A DNA stretch of 64,000 nucleotides, from NCBI GenBank assembly GCA_000827205.1, contig KN832556.1, positions 2,040,969-2,104,968 on the forward strand. Reading direction: 5' to 3'. The notes beneath the pieces were generated by a model. It had not been told where the DNA came from and searched no databases. It worked only from the letters and a program-made list of their open reading frames with translations. Shown here in pieces: positions 39,800 to 52,748 of this stretch. Position numbers and translations under genes: made by a program. The number at the start of each line of letters is the position of its first letter. Position 1 is the first letter of the stretch. Source of the DNA: Plicaturopsis crispa FD-325 SS-3. Lineage: Eukaryota > Basidiomycota > Agaricomycetes > Amylocorticiales > Amylocorticiaceae.

Positions 39800-42060
39800 T
39801 TATATCACTATCTTGACCCGGTACACGCCATGAGCACTGTCGAGTTCGATTATTTCGCAATCCGCCGCATGTCCATTCCCAACCTGTGTCTCAACGCAGG
39901 TAAAATCCATAGCCTACGGAGAGATATTCAGCAGAAGCACACCATCTTCATCGTATATGACATACCTTGTGAAGGACAGTCATAGGTTGGTCTGAACACA
40001 GGTAGTGAGTACTCCAAGCCCAAATCGTTGACAAGACGACTTACGCCAGACAGCCGTATTGTAAACAATCCCTTGGCCAGCGCTCGCCGTGAAGGCGCGC
40101 AAGGTTCCCAGGTCGGGCTTACCGTCCTCTGCGGTCTTCGCGACCACCACAAGATACGAATCACCCGGGTCATCAAGCCCATCGCTACCCACAGAACCTT
40201 GAATTGCGCTGCCCATCGGGATGAATGCCTGGTTCGTGTACGGGTGTCGCTCCAGGATCTTGATTTCGGTTTCCCCATCTACGGTGAAAACAACAGGTTT
40301 ACATCTGTACACAGAGAGACCTGGCGTGGCGCCCAATTCGGCGGGATACGAGGAATGCAGCGGCGCTAGTTTGTGGAATTTACTGGCGGTACCTTGATTA
40401 GCTGGCGTAATTTTTGTTCCGCGAGGAACAGCATTCGGGTCTGCATAGGCCTGGACGACTTGACCGAAAGGTGCGAAGGCTTCTGGTGTCAGAGGGACAG
40501 ACGATATGATAGTGACAGGGCCAGACACGGCGTGGTGGTCCCCTGGTCTCGTGGCTGGCGAAGGATCAAGCACCGTAGAGGCCGCTGCACCCGATGTGCT
40601 CTGTGCCGAGGACCCGTCTGCTCTCCTGCCGATGATTCGAACTCGTTTGACCCCACCGTCAGGATGGATCGTCAGTTTCACGTGCGTGTAGACCTTCTGA
40701 TCTACGTTCTCCAGGTGGAAATAATGCCTTCTATGCGGACCAGTCTTTGTGCGGGGTAAAAGGGGCGTCCACTCATCCTGCGGGATCGTAGCTGGAACGT
40801 CGATCTCGCTGTTCAGGCCGTGCAATTCGATGCTCTCCGGAAAATTGCCCATAAAATGGGCCGTATCGATCTCGGTGTGGTCGAGGATACTGGGTGCGCC
40901 ACTGGTGATGAATGGTAAGCTTAAGTACCACAAGAAGAATACTAGGCGCTTACAGCTTTATAATAGCCCAGTCTTTGTGTCCCTTTTCTCGGCTTCTCTT
41001 TGTCTCCCATCCGTCTCCCATGTCCTTGCCTAATACCGCGATGAATATGGAAATAAGATTAAATCCGCCGTGACATACCTCTGCCGGGGAGTATGAGATT
41101 CGACCCAACTCCAAAGTGCTGGTCCGAGGTGAACACAACACGGCCCCCCGCAAAGACATGTGCAACGTCAAATAGTTGTGTGGCGTCGGAGGGAAATACG
41201 GGAGCGACATCGCCGTATACCCTGAAGCGTGCCTATGACGGCAGTCAGCTTGCCATCTCAGCTCCCGAGCTCACCTATGCGAGCAAGTCCACTCACAATG
41301 CCACCGTCGGGATACATATTCAACTTTACATAGTTGATCCCTGGGGTCTTGGGAATCTTGAACAGATGTCTCGAAGTTGGCCCTAAGTCAACTCTGGGCA
41401 AGATCTCGGACCACTACATGTGATGCCGTCAGACTTTGTGCTATAGTCAAGACAAACTGGGGTGTACGCACCCTGGAGTCACTGGTTTCTGGGTCGCCAG
41501 AGTCGCTGTAGAGCGCGTCTACAGATGCCTGCGGGGCCTCGTTTCCTGACAAAAATAGAATGAAAAAAAGCTCTCGGGCATGTTAAATCACACGAGCTGA
41601 CCGTTAAAATGGGTGGTATCAATATCGAAACCCACCACAGAGCCGCTCGTACCCAGCTTGATGATGCACCTGGCATGTCAGATAAGTTAATGAGCCGTGC
41701 CGATGTTCAGCAACAAACGCACCAGTCATGCGCTGGATTGTGCCTGCGGGATTCCCACCCACTGTACAAGGCACCTTTTGGTCCGAATTGGCCCTTCAAA
41801 CTAGGCGCTGGCTGGGGAAGGAAAGTCCGTGATCATGTTAGGTTTAACGGTTCAAGGTCAACGCTCACCTCCACGAGTAGCAGATGAAACGCCTCTGCAA
41901 AGAATTCATCGGACACGGCGACGATCTTGCCTCCCAGCGCTACGCTGGACAGCTCTGCCAAGATCGTCAGCACAAAACGTCAAGACAGGGGATGCTGCAT
42001 ACCAGTCGCCGTCCCAAATGTCGAGGAGAATCCGTCCAAGGGGATCCTTTCGTAGGCCAT
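39800..42060 (-). CDS. Allantoicase-ureidoglycolate lyase fusion (purine degradation)
   Basis: Would convert allantoate to urea plus ureidoglycolate, then to glyoxylate plus urea, in the purine/allantoin nitrogen-recycling pathway. The start at 42060 ([19 protein letters not shown]) precedes several short exons of the first allantoicase repeat: [50 protein letters not shown]. The second repeat follows: [54 protein letters not shown] Ser/Ala-rich linker of about 30 residues leads directly, in one uninterrupted exon, into ureidoglycolate lyase: [50 protein letters not shown]-like core, [20 protein letters not shown], then across introns [17 protein letters not shown] and [10 protein letters not shown]. 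Yeast encodes these enzymes separately (Dal2, Dal3). Confidence 0.93.
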
Positions 42061-44334: not shown

Positions 44335-45409
44335 GTCGGATCGGTCGAGGCCTCAAGGCGAACGTCAGTCGGGCAGCAAAGCCGTAGGCTCGTACCCAGT
44401 TTCCACTGGTGATGAAAAACGCGATTGAAGAGCGCAGACGATGAGGGCGAAATAGATAGAATAAAGACAAGTTATAAGAACAGATGAGAGCAGGAGAGGT
44501 TATTGGGCAGACCCAGCAGAGCTGACAAGGAAATTTAGGCGAGAGCGACGTTCGTGTTGGAAGGAAGGAAAACGCGTCGGCCCAATTTGGCGCAACCACG
44601 CGGGACCGGGTCCTGCTCGGAGCTCCCCCCGAGTCCTTTCCTCCTCGACTCGGACTTCCCATCGACTTCAGCTCTCAGTTCTAATTTTTGACGACTAGCT
44701 ATACTAAGCCTGTGGCGGTGAGACTCTTCATTCGATATATATTTTGATAAGGAAAGGTGTACTCAGCCACGGCTCGTCGACCGCAGCTGCCCGACACTAC
44801 CCAAGCAAGAGCTATCCGATGGTCGATGGGGGCCTCTTTGATTATCCTGCCACTGTCATGACCGTCATGACCATCTCAGAATCTCGAGGGAGATATTTTA
44901 GAGCCTGAGTAGAATGTCCTTTGATTCCGTTGCGCACAGGGTAGGATTCATTTGATAATTGCAATATATATGCATTTTTGTTACCTCAGGCCCGAAGGCT
45001 ATGCGTGGACTCCATTTCATCGGACCTTGGACCTCGTAAGCTGGCCAAGGCTGGCAGACGAGCACAACAAGAATGCAGGCCTACCTGTACGGTCGATGTT
45101 GTACTCTACGTGAGCTGGCACTGCTTGGCGAGGTGAAGTCGGGTAAACGCGTGTCCAAAAAAGGCAATTACATAGGAACAATAGAACTTTGCACGCTTTG
45201 TTCTTTGTTCTCCTCCGCCGTTTCATTTACGTCGCGCAGACAATGGCCATTCGGATCCCTAACCGTCACCAAAATTCTCCTCAAATAATGGCCTTGTACA
45301 ATTCCTCATTCCCCGGTTTACTTTCTTCCTTTCTCCTCACGTTTGTCGACGTTCGCTCAGGTCTTAATTCGACGTCGCCGGTCGACTCATCGCAGCACCT
45401 GGCATTCTC
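44335..45409. other. Divergent intergenic region, Smr protein / PRM1
   Basis: 1.07 kb that must hold both promoters. A short direct repeat of gtcatgacc lies near 44854-44872. No coding exon recognised. Confidence 0.5.
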
Positions 45410-48400
45410 ATGTCCGTCGTTTCTCCTACCCGCAATCGCTGGATGAGCACACCACCGCCCGTTTACGACAACTCTCGCTCCGTCTCCCAATCAACCACCA
45501 CACTCAAACCGTACCTCCAACTTCCTCACCTTCTCTCCCTCACATGGCTCGCGTACCCGATTCTTTCCCTGCTCTTCGTCGCGTTCCGCCTTCAGCTGTC
45601 TGTCGCGTCCTCTCAGGATTCGGTGGCTAGCGCGAAGGGTGACTTACTTACCAGCTGCAGGGCTGCAGAGCAAGCAGCTACGTCTGCAGCTAGCATGCCC
45701 AGGTTCATGGCTGCTGCCACCAACCAGCAGATCGCCGACGCAGTAAATGGGACCATGAATGCTGCTCGTGCTACCCTCGTTCTCTCTTTGACCATCATGG
45801 AGACGATCATCAACTTCATCGTCGACATTTATCGCTCGACATTCCTGTGTTTCCTCGAGTTGGTCGTTCGTGGGGGTCTGTCGATATTGATCAGTGCTGT
45901 TCAAGAGGTACGAGAAACAGTTATTTAAGCCTCGGCATAGAAGACTTATTCAGCTCTAGATTACGAATGCCGTTCAGAGCACCGTAAGCGGCATCCGGAC
46001 AAACATTCAGAACGACGTCGCCTCTGCAAACTCTGCTATCCAGAGTGTGGTCAATGGGCTGAACAAGCTGAAAGTATTCGGCAACGTTTCTGTACCACAA
46101 TTCAACATTCCTAGTCTCGATGCACTGCAGAATGTTACGATCCCAACCGACTTTGAGAATGCCCTCATTTCTCTCAACAGTTCTTTGCCCTCCATCGATG
46201 ATCTCAAGAATGCAATCGACTCAATGTAAGTATGATCTCCAACTTCTCGTCTGCAATCGTATCTCACGAGTCCCTTAGCATCGACACTCCTTTTGAGGCT
46301 GTGAAAGCAGATATCAATCAAACGTTTGGCAATCTCTCGTTTGACGCGTCGACTCTGCCCGTTCCTCAGCAGAACACGCTTTCTTTCTGCGGGGACTTGG
46401 ACACCTCTGTCATCGATGATCTCGGTCGCGACATTCTCAAAGCTGCGAAAATCGGAACTCTCATCCTCATCCTCCTTGTACTCCTCCTTCTTGCCGGCAA
46501 TTGCGCGCTCGAGTGGTACAAGTGGCGTTGCCTCAAGCGGCACCTGCAGTACACGCGCGAGGCTTGGGTATCAGACCCCACCATGTATCACTCCGGCCCT
46601 GCCCAGGGCACGCCGACTGTCACCCTGAGCGACCACAATCTTCTCATGCTCCAGGCCAGCGGCGCGCATCCCCTCCTCACTCGCATCGCGAACACCCTCG
46701 CTGCCAAGCTGCGCTTGTCCCCGTCGCAGCACACGCACCTGCAGTGGTTCTTCCACTACATCTTCCACGCGCCCGCGCTGGCGTGCTTCCTCATCGGCTT
46801 CTTCGGCCTGCTCTCCGTGCAGCTGCAGCTCATCGCGATTGGCCCGCTGGAGGCCAAATACACCAAGCAGGCGGCTGCAAGTGTCTCGGACTTCTCGAAT
46901 ACGATCGCAACGTCGATGAATGCGAGCATGTACAATCAATCCTCCGCGTACGCGAACGACATCAACGGCCGCGTGGACACGATCCAGCAGACAATCAACG
47001 AGGGTCTGTTTGGATGGGTGAACGGAACCACCACCACGCTGAACAGCACCCTCAACACGTTCTACGACGATATCCAGAATTCCGTGACGAAGGTGATTGT
47101 ACATTTCCGCGCTATCGAATTCCAGACACTAACGTAACTGCCAACAGGTTTTCAATGGTACCATTCTCGAAAGCCCAGTTCAGGAGTTTGTCCGGTGTTT
47201 CATCGGCTCCAAGGTCGACGCATTCGAGGAAGCGCTCACTTTCCTGCACGACAACCTCCAGATCAATATCGCGCGCGTCAACGACAGCGTGCTCGTGCTC
47301 TCGCCCGCCGACGTTGACGAAGCGACGAGACCCATCGCTACGGCCGCCATCGGCGGCGGCAACGACGACAGCCAAGGCGTCGTGGGGCGCCTGATAGCCG
47401 CGTACGTGAACTCGCTGAAGAAGGAACGCATCATGTTCGCGATCTTCATGGGCCTCTGGGGCGTCGTCGTCCTCATGGCGCTGTGCATCATATTCTGGCA
47501 CTCGTACGGCCAGCACTGGCTTGAGGCGCACCGGCGACGCAAGTGGCTCAAGGAGCAGCGCGGCATGGACGGGCTGCCTGATAGGTTCCGCGATGCTGGT
47601 AATGAGAAGGGCGACATGGAGAAGCAGGCAGTTGATCTGCCAAGCTTCACGCCCATGCCCTCGCCGAAGCCGAGCATGAGCTTCAATCCGTTCAGGCGCT
47701 CGACAAAGCCACCCGCGCAGAACCCGAATCTTCTCCGGGCGAACCATCCACTGAACACATTGGACCGCAATTTCGAGAGGAGCTGGGATACTTTCGTCGA
47801 TCATAATGATGTGGCGCAGGATTATGGGTCTAAGCCCAAGCCTAACAAATTGTTGGCCATTGGGCGCAAGGCTATGGGACGCGAGCGCTTCGTTCGCGAT
47901 CAGGAGCCCAGCCTCGATAATGAGCGTGAGGCTGAGCAGGCCGAGACGAACGGCTGGCTCGGCCGTGTCAAGGGCAAGCTCGCACGGGCCCGAACCGACG
48001 ACAGTGGGGAACCATCATTCCAAGCCCAGCGCTCCCGCCCCAACCTGACGATCACCACCGAGCACCTCTCCGCGAACGTCGCGCCCCATGCCCCGCCAGC
48101 GGACGCCCGCGACCAGGGCCCTTCCTCCGCCTGGTCCGTCTCGCCCACCCCGCCGCGCGCGCCCTGGATGAACATCATCTCCTCCACGCGCAAAGTCGTC
48201 CCGCACGCCCCCGGCCTGCCCCTCCGCCCGAAGCCGCGCCGCAACGCCAGCGTCCCCAACGACGTCGACGCGGACGCGGACGAGGATGTGACCGCGAGCG
48301 TGCTTCCCGGGCCGACGCCGCTCGCCGTACCGATTCATCACGGCTTCGAGCGGCGCGAGTCGTGGGTGACGCCGGGCGAGCTTGCCCCGCCCGTGGACCG

Positions 48401-48536
48401 TCACAGGCGCTCGGTGTCCGTGCCGATCGCGACGTGGGACGATCCGTTCGCTACGCCGTTTGACGACGAGGCGCGCGTGCAGCAGCCCGCGCGGCCTGAA
48501 CGACCGACGAATCCGTTTGCGCCCGTGGCGTACTAG
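45410..48536 (+). CDS. PRM1: Plasma-membrane fusion protein Prm1
   Basis: Multi-pass glycoprotein that stabilises plasma-membrane fusion in mating and hyphal fusion. Four exons (introns 45909-45960, 46226-46278, 47093-47147) give 988 residues. Family landmarks: N-terminal [34 protein letters not shown] with the first transmembrane helix, [20 protein letters not shown], and [33 protein letters not shown]. An extracellular loop rich in N-glycosylation sequons follows, then [47 protein letters not shown], a second glycosylated loop, and [23 protein letters not shown]. The cytosolic C-terminus is about 330 residues, Pro/Arg-rich and strikingly GC-rich. It converges with the BXI1 gene. Confidence 0.95.
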
Positions 48537-49084: not shown

Positions 49085-50407
49085 TTAACGTTCGTTGGCA
49101 TTGTTGAGGAGACGGAGGATGCTCAAGACTGTAGACACGCGTTAGTAAGATGCATGGTGCTGAAAAATTCAGACTAAACGACGTACAGAGGTTGATGAAG
49201 CTGGAGATTTAGATTGAGGATATCAGTACCACAAATGCATATGAAGCAGCGGAACGACGCACTCAAGGTAGAGGCTGATAGCGCCCATGATATACTCGTC
49301 CGGAGAGAGCTTCGCATTGATAGTGTACGTGTCATACACGACATATCCGCTGAACAGAAGGGTTCCACCGATCGCGAAGATAAGGTCCATGGTGCGGCCG
49401 AAGGGGATGAAGACGCCGACTAGACCGGTCATTACTGTTGTGCGGTCATGATCAGCGATAAATAACATGTTGTGAGTTCCGACAACGTACGGAGGGCGAT
49501 CAAGCCGCCAAATAGCCATGGGCCCATGCCGGAGAAGTCGTACTGGAAGTAAGAGTCAGCATTGACATGATATGCCGAGGTAGACAGTGGGATGTCCATA
49601 CCTTCGACTGGAACGTGAATAGAGTCAAACCGAGGAACACGCCGAGAGTGATCAGTAACGCCTGCAGAACAATCTTGTTGTCGTAGAATGCGACAACCAC
49701 GCCCAGCGTGAATGCCTCCATAATTGTGAATGTCGAAAGTAGCGCCAAGTTAAGCGGGTGGCTGTGGCGTTTCCAGTACAGGAGACCCAGGTTGACCATA
49801 GTCCCGAACAACGGCAGGTAGAATGCCCATACGCTTTATGCAGAGGTAAGTATACGCAGAAAGTGATGTATACAGTAGAAACGCACTGTGTTTGGACCCA
49901 AGCGACAGTCGAAACCGACTGTGACAAGACACCGCTGACGATGCATGTGGCAAGCTGTGCAGGCAAAAAGGTAAGTACCTATGTGGTGCAACTAGACGGG
50001 GCTTCTCACAATTTGAGCAACTAGTTCAAGACCCCAAGTCAGCACGATGTCGTACGTGTCAAAGAAGTGCGCACTCACAAAGAATCGTGTACACTTTCCG
50101 CACAAAGGCGTTCCGGATTTCAGGCGAACTCTCGGAAACCGTCACGCCATACTGCCCGTGTCTGTGCGTCAGAAGACCCTGTCTCATTGTACACCACAAC
50201 ACTCACCTTGAAGTCATCTGGCAGATCTCCGTATTCGGGCTGGTCGTAAATTGCACCTCCTGCGTTGGCGCTAGGCCCGGCAGTAGGCGATCTCGGGCTG
50301 CTCAGGAGAGGGGAAGTAGGGTCATCGGTAGGATAATATTTCGAATTCGAAGCCGCCGCCGGGGGGGCACTGTATGAAGGAGGAGGGGGCGCAGGATATT
50401 GGCTCAT
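49085..50407 (-). CDS. BXI1: Bax-inhibitor-1 / Lifeguard family membrane protein
   Basis: Multi-pass ER/vacuolar membrane protein of the TMBIM family, implicated in calcium leak, the unfolded protein response and cell-death control. The start is at 50407 (MSQYPAPPPPSYSAPP). The Pro-rich cytosolic N-terminus is followed by spliced YGVTVSESSPEIRNAFVRKVYTILFAQILATCIVSGVLSQ. Then HVWAFYLPLFGTMVNLGLLYWKR, NLALLSTFTIMEAFTLGVVVAFYDN, SKYDFSGMGPWLFGGLIAL, and IFAIGGTLLFSGYVVYDT. The end is SLYLDFINLFLSILRLLNNANER. Two micro-exons are needed to obtain these conserved motifs: 11 nt at 50010-50020 and 14 nt at 49187-49200. Flanking introns are 54-62 nt. Any single-frame gene call will miss both. Confidence 0.93.
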
Positions 50408-51935
50408 GGTGGTAAGTTTCAGGGATGAGAGCGTCCGGCGTTCGAAGGCGATGTGCTTGTATGAATGACGCACAGCCACAGCCAGGGCCGCTGATTACGT
50501 AAACAACCTCCTCGACGGTTCTCGAGCCTCGGATGCCACGTGTCCGGCGGGTCCGCTACATCCTTCGCGCTGCCTTCCAAGTTCAAGTTCGCGTCTTGGC
50601 AAACGTTTGCAGTAGTTCGGACACCACACATGGAGTCCTTGCAGTGGTGTGTGCCAACGCCTATGCGAAATCTGTACAGCCCACGTGGCCTGGGAAAGTC
50701 TCCGAAACTTGTGCGGCAGTCACGCTCGGCGTCGCTTAAAGTGAGATTCAAGCGGAGTTCGAAATACGAGTCAAGCCATTGCTTGGAAGGCGAAGGTGGC
50801 TGAAGAAACGGCTCAACGCCATTTGACGCGAGTTTATGCTCAGGGCAAGCCGAAAAAAAATGAAACAGCCCAGGAAATGCATAAATAGCATATGGTATGC
50901 ATATCTCAGTGAGAAAACCGGTCAAAGTACACATTCAACATATGTTTTCGCCCATCTTGCTTTCGAGAGCCTGCGAGACTCGTTACGTAAATGAGCTCTT
51001 TGGCCGTCTCCTCCCTCAATCCAGGCGAAACTTTGTGAGCTTCCACACCCACTCTACAGCTCCGATAAGGTCCGGAAACCTCGTTGTTGAGCTCGTAGAC
51101 AAAAGTCTTCGGAACAGATTTTTTATCTTTTGCCTACTTTTTGCAAACTGGGCATCTTGCATGCAGTATCAAGGCTATGGTGTAGTATTTTAAAAATCGA
51201 GTCCGAAGACTTTTCTCAGAACGCATTTTAGTACAACTTTCGTCACTGAAAGTTAATGCCAAATGTGCTGTGTCAAGCTGTACAACAGTTGGTCTTTTTT
51301 GCAGTGGCGCGCTCAGTGGCAACTTTGTGGCGCAGACGCGGATCCGCGCGACTTCGACCGCCTGAAACTCGGCATACCGGCAAGGTGTGACCTCGTGTGA
51401 CATTGCCTCTTTCTGGAGGTCGTGGGATTGTACGCTCGGGGCTTTTATTTTGGCAGGGCTTGACACACACCACTTGCAGGTCCTTGCACGGCGCACGCGC
51501 CCAATCTACATGTTCCCGACAGGAGAATCTCTCGAACGGTCACACTGGCATCGCGATGGAACGCGACAAGACCGAGGTTTTCGATTCAAATGAGCCTCAC
51601 AGCGGCAGAATTCACTGAGTTTGACGGAGCGTATGTTTACACAGACAGGACGTCGTGTATTTCTACACATACGCGTTTCATGATACATATCGTACACAGG
51701 CCCCGACCATGCACCCAGTTCGCTGCCCGTAAAATTGATTTGACGCTCTGGAGAGACGTGCAGACCGAATTTGAATGTTGTCAGCCGCAGGTAGAGTCAG
51801 CCTCCACTGCAACACACCTATTTAAAGTGCGACTGCCAGGACGTCCAAGAGGAATAGGTCTGACTCGACCCACCACAAGACATCGCCCCACGGACTGTCC
51901 CGACATCTACATCTGCCAATCGACTGTCAGCCACA
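50408..51935. other. Intergenic region upstream of the secreted repeat protein
   Basis: 1.5 kb between divergent genes. Small frames here (up to 121 codons) show no domain and overlap each other. The last 120 bp contain the likely promoter of the downstream gene. No RNA gene or transposon recognised. Confidence 0.5.
51819..51826 (+). promoter_or_regulatory. TATA-like box upstream of the secreted repeat protein
   Basis: TATTTAAA lies 110 bp before the start codon at 51936, a normal distance for a fungal TATA box with a short leader. Few other genes in the window have such an element, which fits a strongly regulated gene. Motif-based only. Confidence 0.45.
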
Positions 51936-52748
51936 ATGCGCTCTACCACCTACATCCTCCTCTCCACCCTGGCCGTCCTCAACTGGGGCGCTACCTCAGT
52001 CTGGGCGTCGCCAATGCCAGCCAAGGCTGCTCCGGCCGCTCACATCAACGATGGCGCTGGTCTCACACACGGTGCGGGCAGCGTCGGCGCCCGTCAGATC
52101 CACAACGCCGACTACGGCGCGCAGGCGAGCACGACATCCGCCGCCGCCGCCACTATGACGCCGAAAGCAGCGCCCTCCGCTACCGGCCAAGGCAAGCGCC
52201 AGGAGGCGAAGCCGTCCATCGCACCCGTCACCGGGGTCCACGCACCGACGTCGACGATGGTCGCACGTGCCGAGCAGGGCGCGAACGCCCTGAAAGTCGT
52301 GGAGAACGTGCACGCGGGGAGGAAAGTGGACGCGATGACCCAGCCGCGCGAGGCCGCCGTCGCGGACAAGGTCGCGCCGAGGGCCGGTCCGACCGTGTTC
52401 CCGCACGTCCATGGCAAGGTGAACGGCTTCTCGGGGGACACGCCGTCGAAGAGAGGCACGCCCAAGCCGCCTGCCGCCGTCCCCGTCGCGAAGCCGCACG
52501 TCCATGCGGTCGCAAACAACGTGAATGAGGATACTCCGACGAAGAGAGGCGCGCCCAAGCCACCTGCCGTCCCCGTCGCGAAGCCGCACGTCCACGCGGT
52601 GGCGAACAACGTCAACGAAGATACACCGACGAAGAGGGGCGCGCCCGCAGCTCCTGTCGCAAAGCCGCACGTTCACGCGGTCGTCAACGACAAGCACATG
52701 GACACGCCCACGAAGCGGGAGAGCGGCGGGCTGAACGAGCTGAATTGA
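51936..52748 (+). CDS. Secreted repetitive peptide precursor with kexin (Lys-Arg) sites
   Basis: Intronless, 270 residues. The N-terminus is a clear signal peptide (MRSTTYILLSTLAVLNWGATSVWA, cleavage likely after Ala24). Residues 25-148 are Ala/Thr-rich with one Lys-Arg at 87-88. The C-terminal half holds four tandem units ending in Lys-Arg at 172-173, 203-204, 233-234 and 260-261, with units of about 25, 31, 30 and 27 residues. Units 2-4 share PVAKPHVHAV, and units 2-3 are near-identical. All end in DTPSKR or DTPTKR. A short tail, ESGGLNELN, follows. This is the layout of fungal kexin-processed secreted peptides: Golgi Kex2 would release His/Pro-rich 25-29-mers after trimming. Units contain no Cys and no Tyr, which argues against a typical Tyr-crosslinked dikaritin. 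Function unknown. Confidence 0.85.
   Translation: MRSTTYILLSTLAVLNWGATSVWASPMPAKAAPAAHINDGAGLTHGAGSVGARQIHNADYGAQASTTSAAAATMTPKAAPSATGQGKRQEAKPSIAPVTGVHAPTSTMVARAEQGANALKVVENVHAGRKVDAMTQPREAAVADKVAPRAGPTVFPHVHGKVNGFSGDTPSKRGTPKPPAAVPVAKPHVHAVANNVNEDTPTKRGAPKPPAVPVAKPHVHAVANNVNEDTPTKRGAPAAPVAKPHVHAVVNDKHMDTPTKRESGGLNELN
52380..52718 (+). repeat. Four tandem peptide-coding units
   Basis: Units at 52380-52454 (degenerate), 52455-52547, 52548-52637 and 52638-52718. Units 2 and 3 are near-identical at protein level but differ at several third positions, so the array is not brand new. Unit lengths differ by whole codons, keeping the frame. Confidence 0.88.

Follow-up and report, generated by a model that had tools for sequence, protein, structure and literature searches.

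The 64,000-nucleotide stretch of Plicaturopsis crispa FD-325 SS-3 DNA analyzed here (the window) contains, at positions 51936-52748 of the plus strand, one open frame of 270 codons for a putative repeat precursor. The frame begins with an ATG at 51936, with an A at position -3, and ends with a stop codon at 52746-52748, giving a product of 270 aa; its GC content by codon position (0.66/0.55/0.82) is coding-like. The features of the locus, in window coordinates, are as follows.

51819-51826, plus strand: TATA-like octamer TATTTAAA (sequence match)
51936-52748, plus strand: precursor coding sequence, 270 aa in an intron-free reading (open frame, coding-like GC, full-length relative)
51936-52007, plus strand: signal-peptide-like N-terminus, residues 1-24 (charged start, hydrophobic stretch, V-W-A)
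52008-52199, plus strand: pro-region, residues 25-88, with the first Lys-Arg at its end
52200-52325, plus strand: second pro-fragment, residues 89-130, with Arg-Lys at its end
52326-52454, plus strand: third fragment, residues 131-173, with the decayed unit 1 (core 52389-52454, located by a profile of units 2-4)
52455-52547, plus strand: unit 2, residues 174-204, Lys-Arg at its end
52548-52637, plus strand: unit 3, residues 205-234, Lys-Arg at its end; same core peptide as in unit 2, encoded with 8 silent differences
52638-52718, plus strand: unit 4, residues 235-261, Lys-Arg at its end
52719-52745, plus strand: C-terminal tail, residues 262-270, fast-changing (3 of 10 substitutions against the relative P0001, post hoc)

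The N-terminus, MRSTTYILLSTLAVLNWGATSVWA, looks by eye like a signal peptide whose presumed cut would follow V22-W23-A24; the next 127 residues (25-151) have a high content of Ala, Pro and Val. Four cores of 22 residues then begin at residues 152, 183, 213 and 240, each ended by Lys-Arg; units 2, 3 and 4 measure 31, 30 and 27 residues, and unit 1 is decayed. The open reading frame, its coordinates and its four Lys-Arg-ended cores, the first of them degenerate, are thus as the first-pass annotation had described. Every unit ends in Lys-Arg, as that annotation stated, but unit 1 has no Lys-Arg directly upstream. Likewise, the spacer it placed before the units is present but contains two further dibasic sites, Lys-Arg at residues 87-88 and Arg-Lys at 129-130, so that the spacer may be cut too. 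If every dibasic site were cut, fragments of 88, 42, 43, 31, 30, 27 and 9 residues would result. Cys is absent throughout the precursor and Tyr is absent from the units, units 2-4 are hydrophilic (GRAVY -0.34 to -0.48), and the C-terminal end is GGLNELN. An AlphaFold model built on a two-row alignment gave a mean pLDDT of 40 with no confident structure, which is compatible with a disordered precursor, although as a weak test. The TATA-like box previously assigned to the gene begins 117 bases 5′ of the ATG, with no ATG between, and stands as a match to the octamer. A promoter and terminator scan of 51600-52000 returned none, the scan being a bacterial one that is not meaningful for a fungus, and Rfam gave 0 matches at the gathering threshold in the window.

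Among 14 selected open reading frames or exons of the window besides the precursor gene, scanned for Pfam families, none was found to encode a peptide-modifying enzyme. The nearest named neighbor is a Bax-inhibitor-1 family exon at 49503-49835 on the minus strand (PF01027, E 1.4e-13). About 3.4 kb upstream of the precursor gene, at 45386-48533 on the plus strand, are open frames of a protein with multiple membrane spans; they matched no Pfam family above the cut-off and resemble fungal Prm1, which acts in the fusion of mating cells, and their proximity is probably a coincidence. One open frame at 39983-40957 on the minus strand combines allantoicase repeat and ureidoglycolate lyase domains, possibly representing a fused enzyme of purine breakdown.

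The repeat array received the highest of ten Tandem Repeats Finder scores in the window (306, the next being 72). The decayed core of unit 1 was recovered by a profile of units 2-4, and its score was reached in 0 of 5000 shuffles. Further decayed units in the pro-region were rejected, since 1775 of 5000 shuffles equaled or exceeded the best profile score there; the tripeptide VHA occurs twice in that region (82 of 20000 shuffles), which is a weak post hoc signal. Five Lys-Arg pairs are present, and at least four were obtained in 70 of 20000 shuffles of residues 26-270. The codon comparison is the strongest of these lines of evidence: over 66 bases, the cores of units 2 and 3 show 8 differences, all of them silent, and 0 amino-acid changes in 22 codons. 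Without constraint, the probability of such a pattern would lie between about 1e-5 and 7e-5, the value varying with the transition bias. Since the silent sites have diverged while the peptide is unchanged, the core is constrained, and its identity reflects more than a recent duplication. All four cores have in common the first Pro, Pro-His-Val-His, one Asn, Asp-Thr-Pro, Ser/Thr and Lys-Arg. The Pro-His-Val-His motif, singled out earlier as the part under constraint, is thus indeed kept in every core, but the comparison of units 2 and 3 indicates that the repeated peptide is under constraint across 22 residues and not in this motif alone. Constraint was weak between units 1 and 2 (dN 0.52, dS 0.56); units 1 and 3 gave dN 0.47 and dS 0.74, and unit 4 shows 7 amino-acid-changing differences from unit 2 and 8 from unit 3.

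A search with the whole protein found one relative, P0001, among 7997 scored candidates (those with the most shared words), and a search with residues 148-262 again found P0001 as the sole relative among 1315 candidates; such searches miss fast-changing orthologues without any common 5-residue word. P0001, present in the Logan source only, is a protein of 269 aa that is full-length to the precursor at 96% identity, with 10 substitutions and one in-frame gap of one residue. The first-pass annotation had proposed comparing unit number and Lys-Arg sites among relatives, and P0001 does retain the number of units, their lengths and 6 of 6 dibasic sites, but with 10 substitutions the chance of retaining every such site is 63%. 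The two proteins differ by too few changes for this retention to be informative on cleavage. Only 1 of the 10 substitutions falls in the cores (P 0.11, not significant), and 3 fall in the 9-residue tail after the last Lys-Arg (P 0.004, post hoc). As a control, we queried with the mitochondrial ribosomal S9 protein of the window. Of 7997 scored candidates, 514 were relatives at E <= 1e-10, and basidiomycetes made up many of those with names among the best 120. The scarcity of relatives of the precursor is therefore not due to thin fungal data, and its sequence does look lineage-private as judged by these searches. Within the reach of the searches, the gene occupies one place in the 33.2-Mb genome, on contig C3, and the PDB gave no sequence match to the precursor. 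No NCBI copy was among the matches listed, although the database includes NCBI proteins of P. crispa, suggesting that the gene, in this form, is probably missing from the public proteome annotation of the species.

The architecture described above suggests that the precursor is likely a KEX2-processed repeat protein (KEP) that is cut into linear peptides. We compared it with the published KEP surveys. PMC7329392 defines KEPs by at least three tandem repeats of 8-100 residues between dibasic sites; without applying the 40-residue seed script of that study, we found units of 31, 30 and 27 residues with Lys-Arg on both sides. PMC6339444 uses repeats covering at least 15% of the protein and at least four KR/RR fragments; in the P. 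crispa precursor, the three units, none shorter than 27 residues, make up 30% of the 270 residues, and there are five Lys-Arg sites. Further likeness to the KEPs of these surveys and of PMC9769878 lies in the start, signal-like by eye, the tandem units bounded by Lys-Arg, the unit size of 25-50 residues and the lineage-private repeat. PMC7329392 found KEPs in 1345 of 1461 strains, 7878 in all, and 2560 of these KEPs (about one third) stand alone without a homologue; PMC6339444 reports 1193 KEPs. With so many KEPs lacking a homologue, an agaricomycete can be expected to have a private one. The earlier proposal of a secreted, kexin-processed repeat precursor is therefore upheld by the architecture, but its description as an undescribed kind is not, as the precursor fits the surveyed class (PMC6339444, PMC7329392). 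What remains of the proposed novelty is the repeat, which looks private to the lineage with one relative found; the kind is known. The precursor's own feature is a repeat with PHVH and DTPTKR, for which we noticed no match in the available sections of PMC6339444, PMC7329392 and PMC9769878. Neither the gene itself nor a similar His-containing KEP was described in the literature, as covered by titles and the starts of abstracts among the matches listed. PMC7329392 places Plicaturopsis under type G-1, which is noted as Tyr-rich and does not match this precursor, whose units have no Tyr.

In the pathway that we propose, the signal peptide would direct the precursor into the secretory pathway, a kexin would cut behind each Lys-Arg, and a Kex1-type carboxypeptidase would trim the basic pair. 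This would release linear, near-neutral peptides of about 25-29 residues, containing Pro, Ala and His and ending in DTPT, with three similar copies and a diverged fourth per precursor. The computed monoisotopic masses without Lys-Arg are 2927.525 (unit 2), 2826.478 (unit 3) and 2559.302 (unit 4). The genome contains a kexin-like gene on C7, whose product is a subtilase carrying a proprotein-convertase P domain that extends below the cut-off into a neighboring frame, as well as a DPPIV-like gene on C13 and 39 matches to S10 carboxypeptidases. The P domain was found at one place in the genome (two candidates were scored), and agaricomycetes are described as having three kex2 genes (PMC9769878). 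The peptides would act extracellularly, most likely in an interaction with other organisms, a role that we infer from PMC9769878 and not from the present analysis.

Several known systems resemble the precursor in part. Alpha-type pheromone precursors of ascomycetes and alpha-like KEPs of basidiomycetes also have repeats bounded by Lys-Arg, and an X-A pair follows Lys-Arg in units 3 and 4 of the precursor and in unit 2 of P0001. However, the units have no Trp, and a full ladder of XA/XP dipeptides, running from Lys-Arg in phase with HVH, is present in unit 4 only; in unit 2, GT and PK interrupt a Ste13-type ladder, and in unit 3 PK and the phase do so. Ste13-type enzymes dislike Pro after the cut, and Pro follows the first dipeptide pair in units 3 and 4. 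A basidiomycete a-type lipopeptide pheromone, defined by a C-terminal CaaX and a small cytoplasmic precursor, was rejected, as had been done before, because there is no Cys and no CaaX and the C-terminus is GGLNELN. Ustilago maydis Rep1, the repellent precursor, is likewise a KEP with linear peptides (PMC9769878); its peptides form amyloid-like fibrils according to that paper, whereas the P. crispa units are hydrophilic by GRAVY, a comparison made by description. The unit core PHVHAVANNVNEDT (52482-52637, plus strand) is similar, below the cut-off, to a short part of the MobA/VirD2 relaxase nuclease profile (PF03432), with 16 unit residues, KPHVHAVANNVNEDTP, aligned to profile positions 91-106, which we take to be the metal-binding HUH stretch. 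The whole precursor scored 18.8 bits against a Pfam cut-off of 24.6 (E 0.0021), units 2 and 3 alone scored 12.6-12.8 bits (E 0.15-0.16), and units 1 and 4 gave none, so that the resemblance was rejected as a chance similarity raised by repetition.

One alternative is that the protein is secreted but stays uncut, or is cut at one or two sites, and serves in the wall or matrix as a disordered protein rich in Pro and Ala, in which Lys-Arg is simply part of the repeat. The abundance of Ala, Pro and Val would suit such a protein, cleavage itself is a prediction, and the dibasic sites kept in P0001 do not discriminate. On the other hand, Lys-Arg stands exactly at the end of all four cores, including the decayed one, and the tail beyond the last site is fast-changing, so that we regard an uncut protein as unlikely and prefer the KEP reading.

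Within the KEP reading, a more specific proposal is that the excised peptides form a secreted class binding copper or zinc, as a metal carrier or a metal-dependent signal in a wood-decay fungus. An N-terminal His-Val-His arrangement binds copper and nickel, and if Ste13-type trimming were complete in unit 4, such an N-terminus would be exposed. What points to metal binding is the H-x-H spacing, and we give this proposal a slender chance.

The KEP architecture is also common to dikaritins of the ustiloxin type (PMC9769878), and the excised peptides could in principle be modified or cyclized by enzymes other than UstYa, making the product a RiPP of another kind. UstYa-linked KEPs are enriched in Tyr (PMC7329392), in contrast to the P. 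crispa units, which have neither Tyr nor Cys. A six-frame search, which weak exons may escape, found no UstYa (DUF3328) match on contig C3; the 7 that it detected genome-wide lie on C1, C10 and C4. By these tests a dikaritin was rejected, in agreement with the first-pass annotation, and with no modifying enzyme among the scanned frames of the window, a RiPP of another kind seems very improbable. Separately, two UstYa-type frames lie about 4 kb apart on C10 (435000-444999, at about 4.4-5.0 kb and 8.2-8.9 kb); in the 15 kb examined around them there was no direct repeat of at least 24 nt within 300 nt and, by this search, no repeat precursor.

One antisense frame is open across most of the repeats, and within it units 2 and 3 differ at 1 of 21 residues; with this near-equal conservation, the codon pattern alone cannot fix the strand. 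No ATG precedes the repeats in that frame, and the signal-like N-terminus, the start context and the full-length relative likewise favor the sense strand. Although the lack of an NCBI copy among the matches listed and the open antisense frame would suit a chance open frame or antisense coding, the full-length relative with its single-residue, in-frame gap, the silent-only differences in the sense frame, the signal-like N-terminus and the missing antisense ATG make it scarcely credible that the precursor gene is not real.

Taken together, these results suggest that the P. crispa precursor is an addition to the known KEP class and is ordinary as a kind of system. Mass spectrometry of four agaricomycetes has revealed linear KEP peptides, KEPs of Coprinopsis cinerea have been expressed in Pichia pastoris with the same kind of detection, and removal of six kep genes of C. 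cinerea caused no visible phenotype (PMC9769878). The P. crispa gene adds a clear precursor to a large class with few known functions, and its constrained repeated core recommends it for peptidomics and gene removal.
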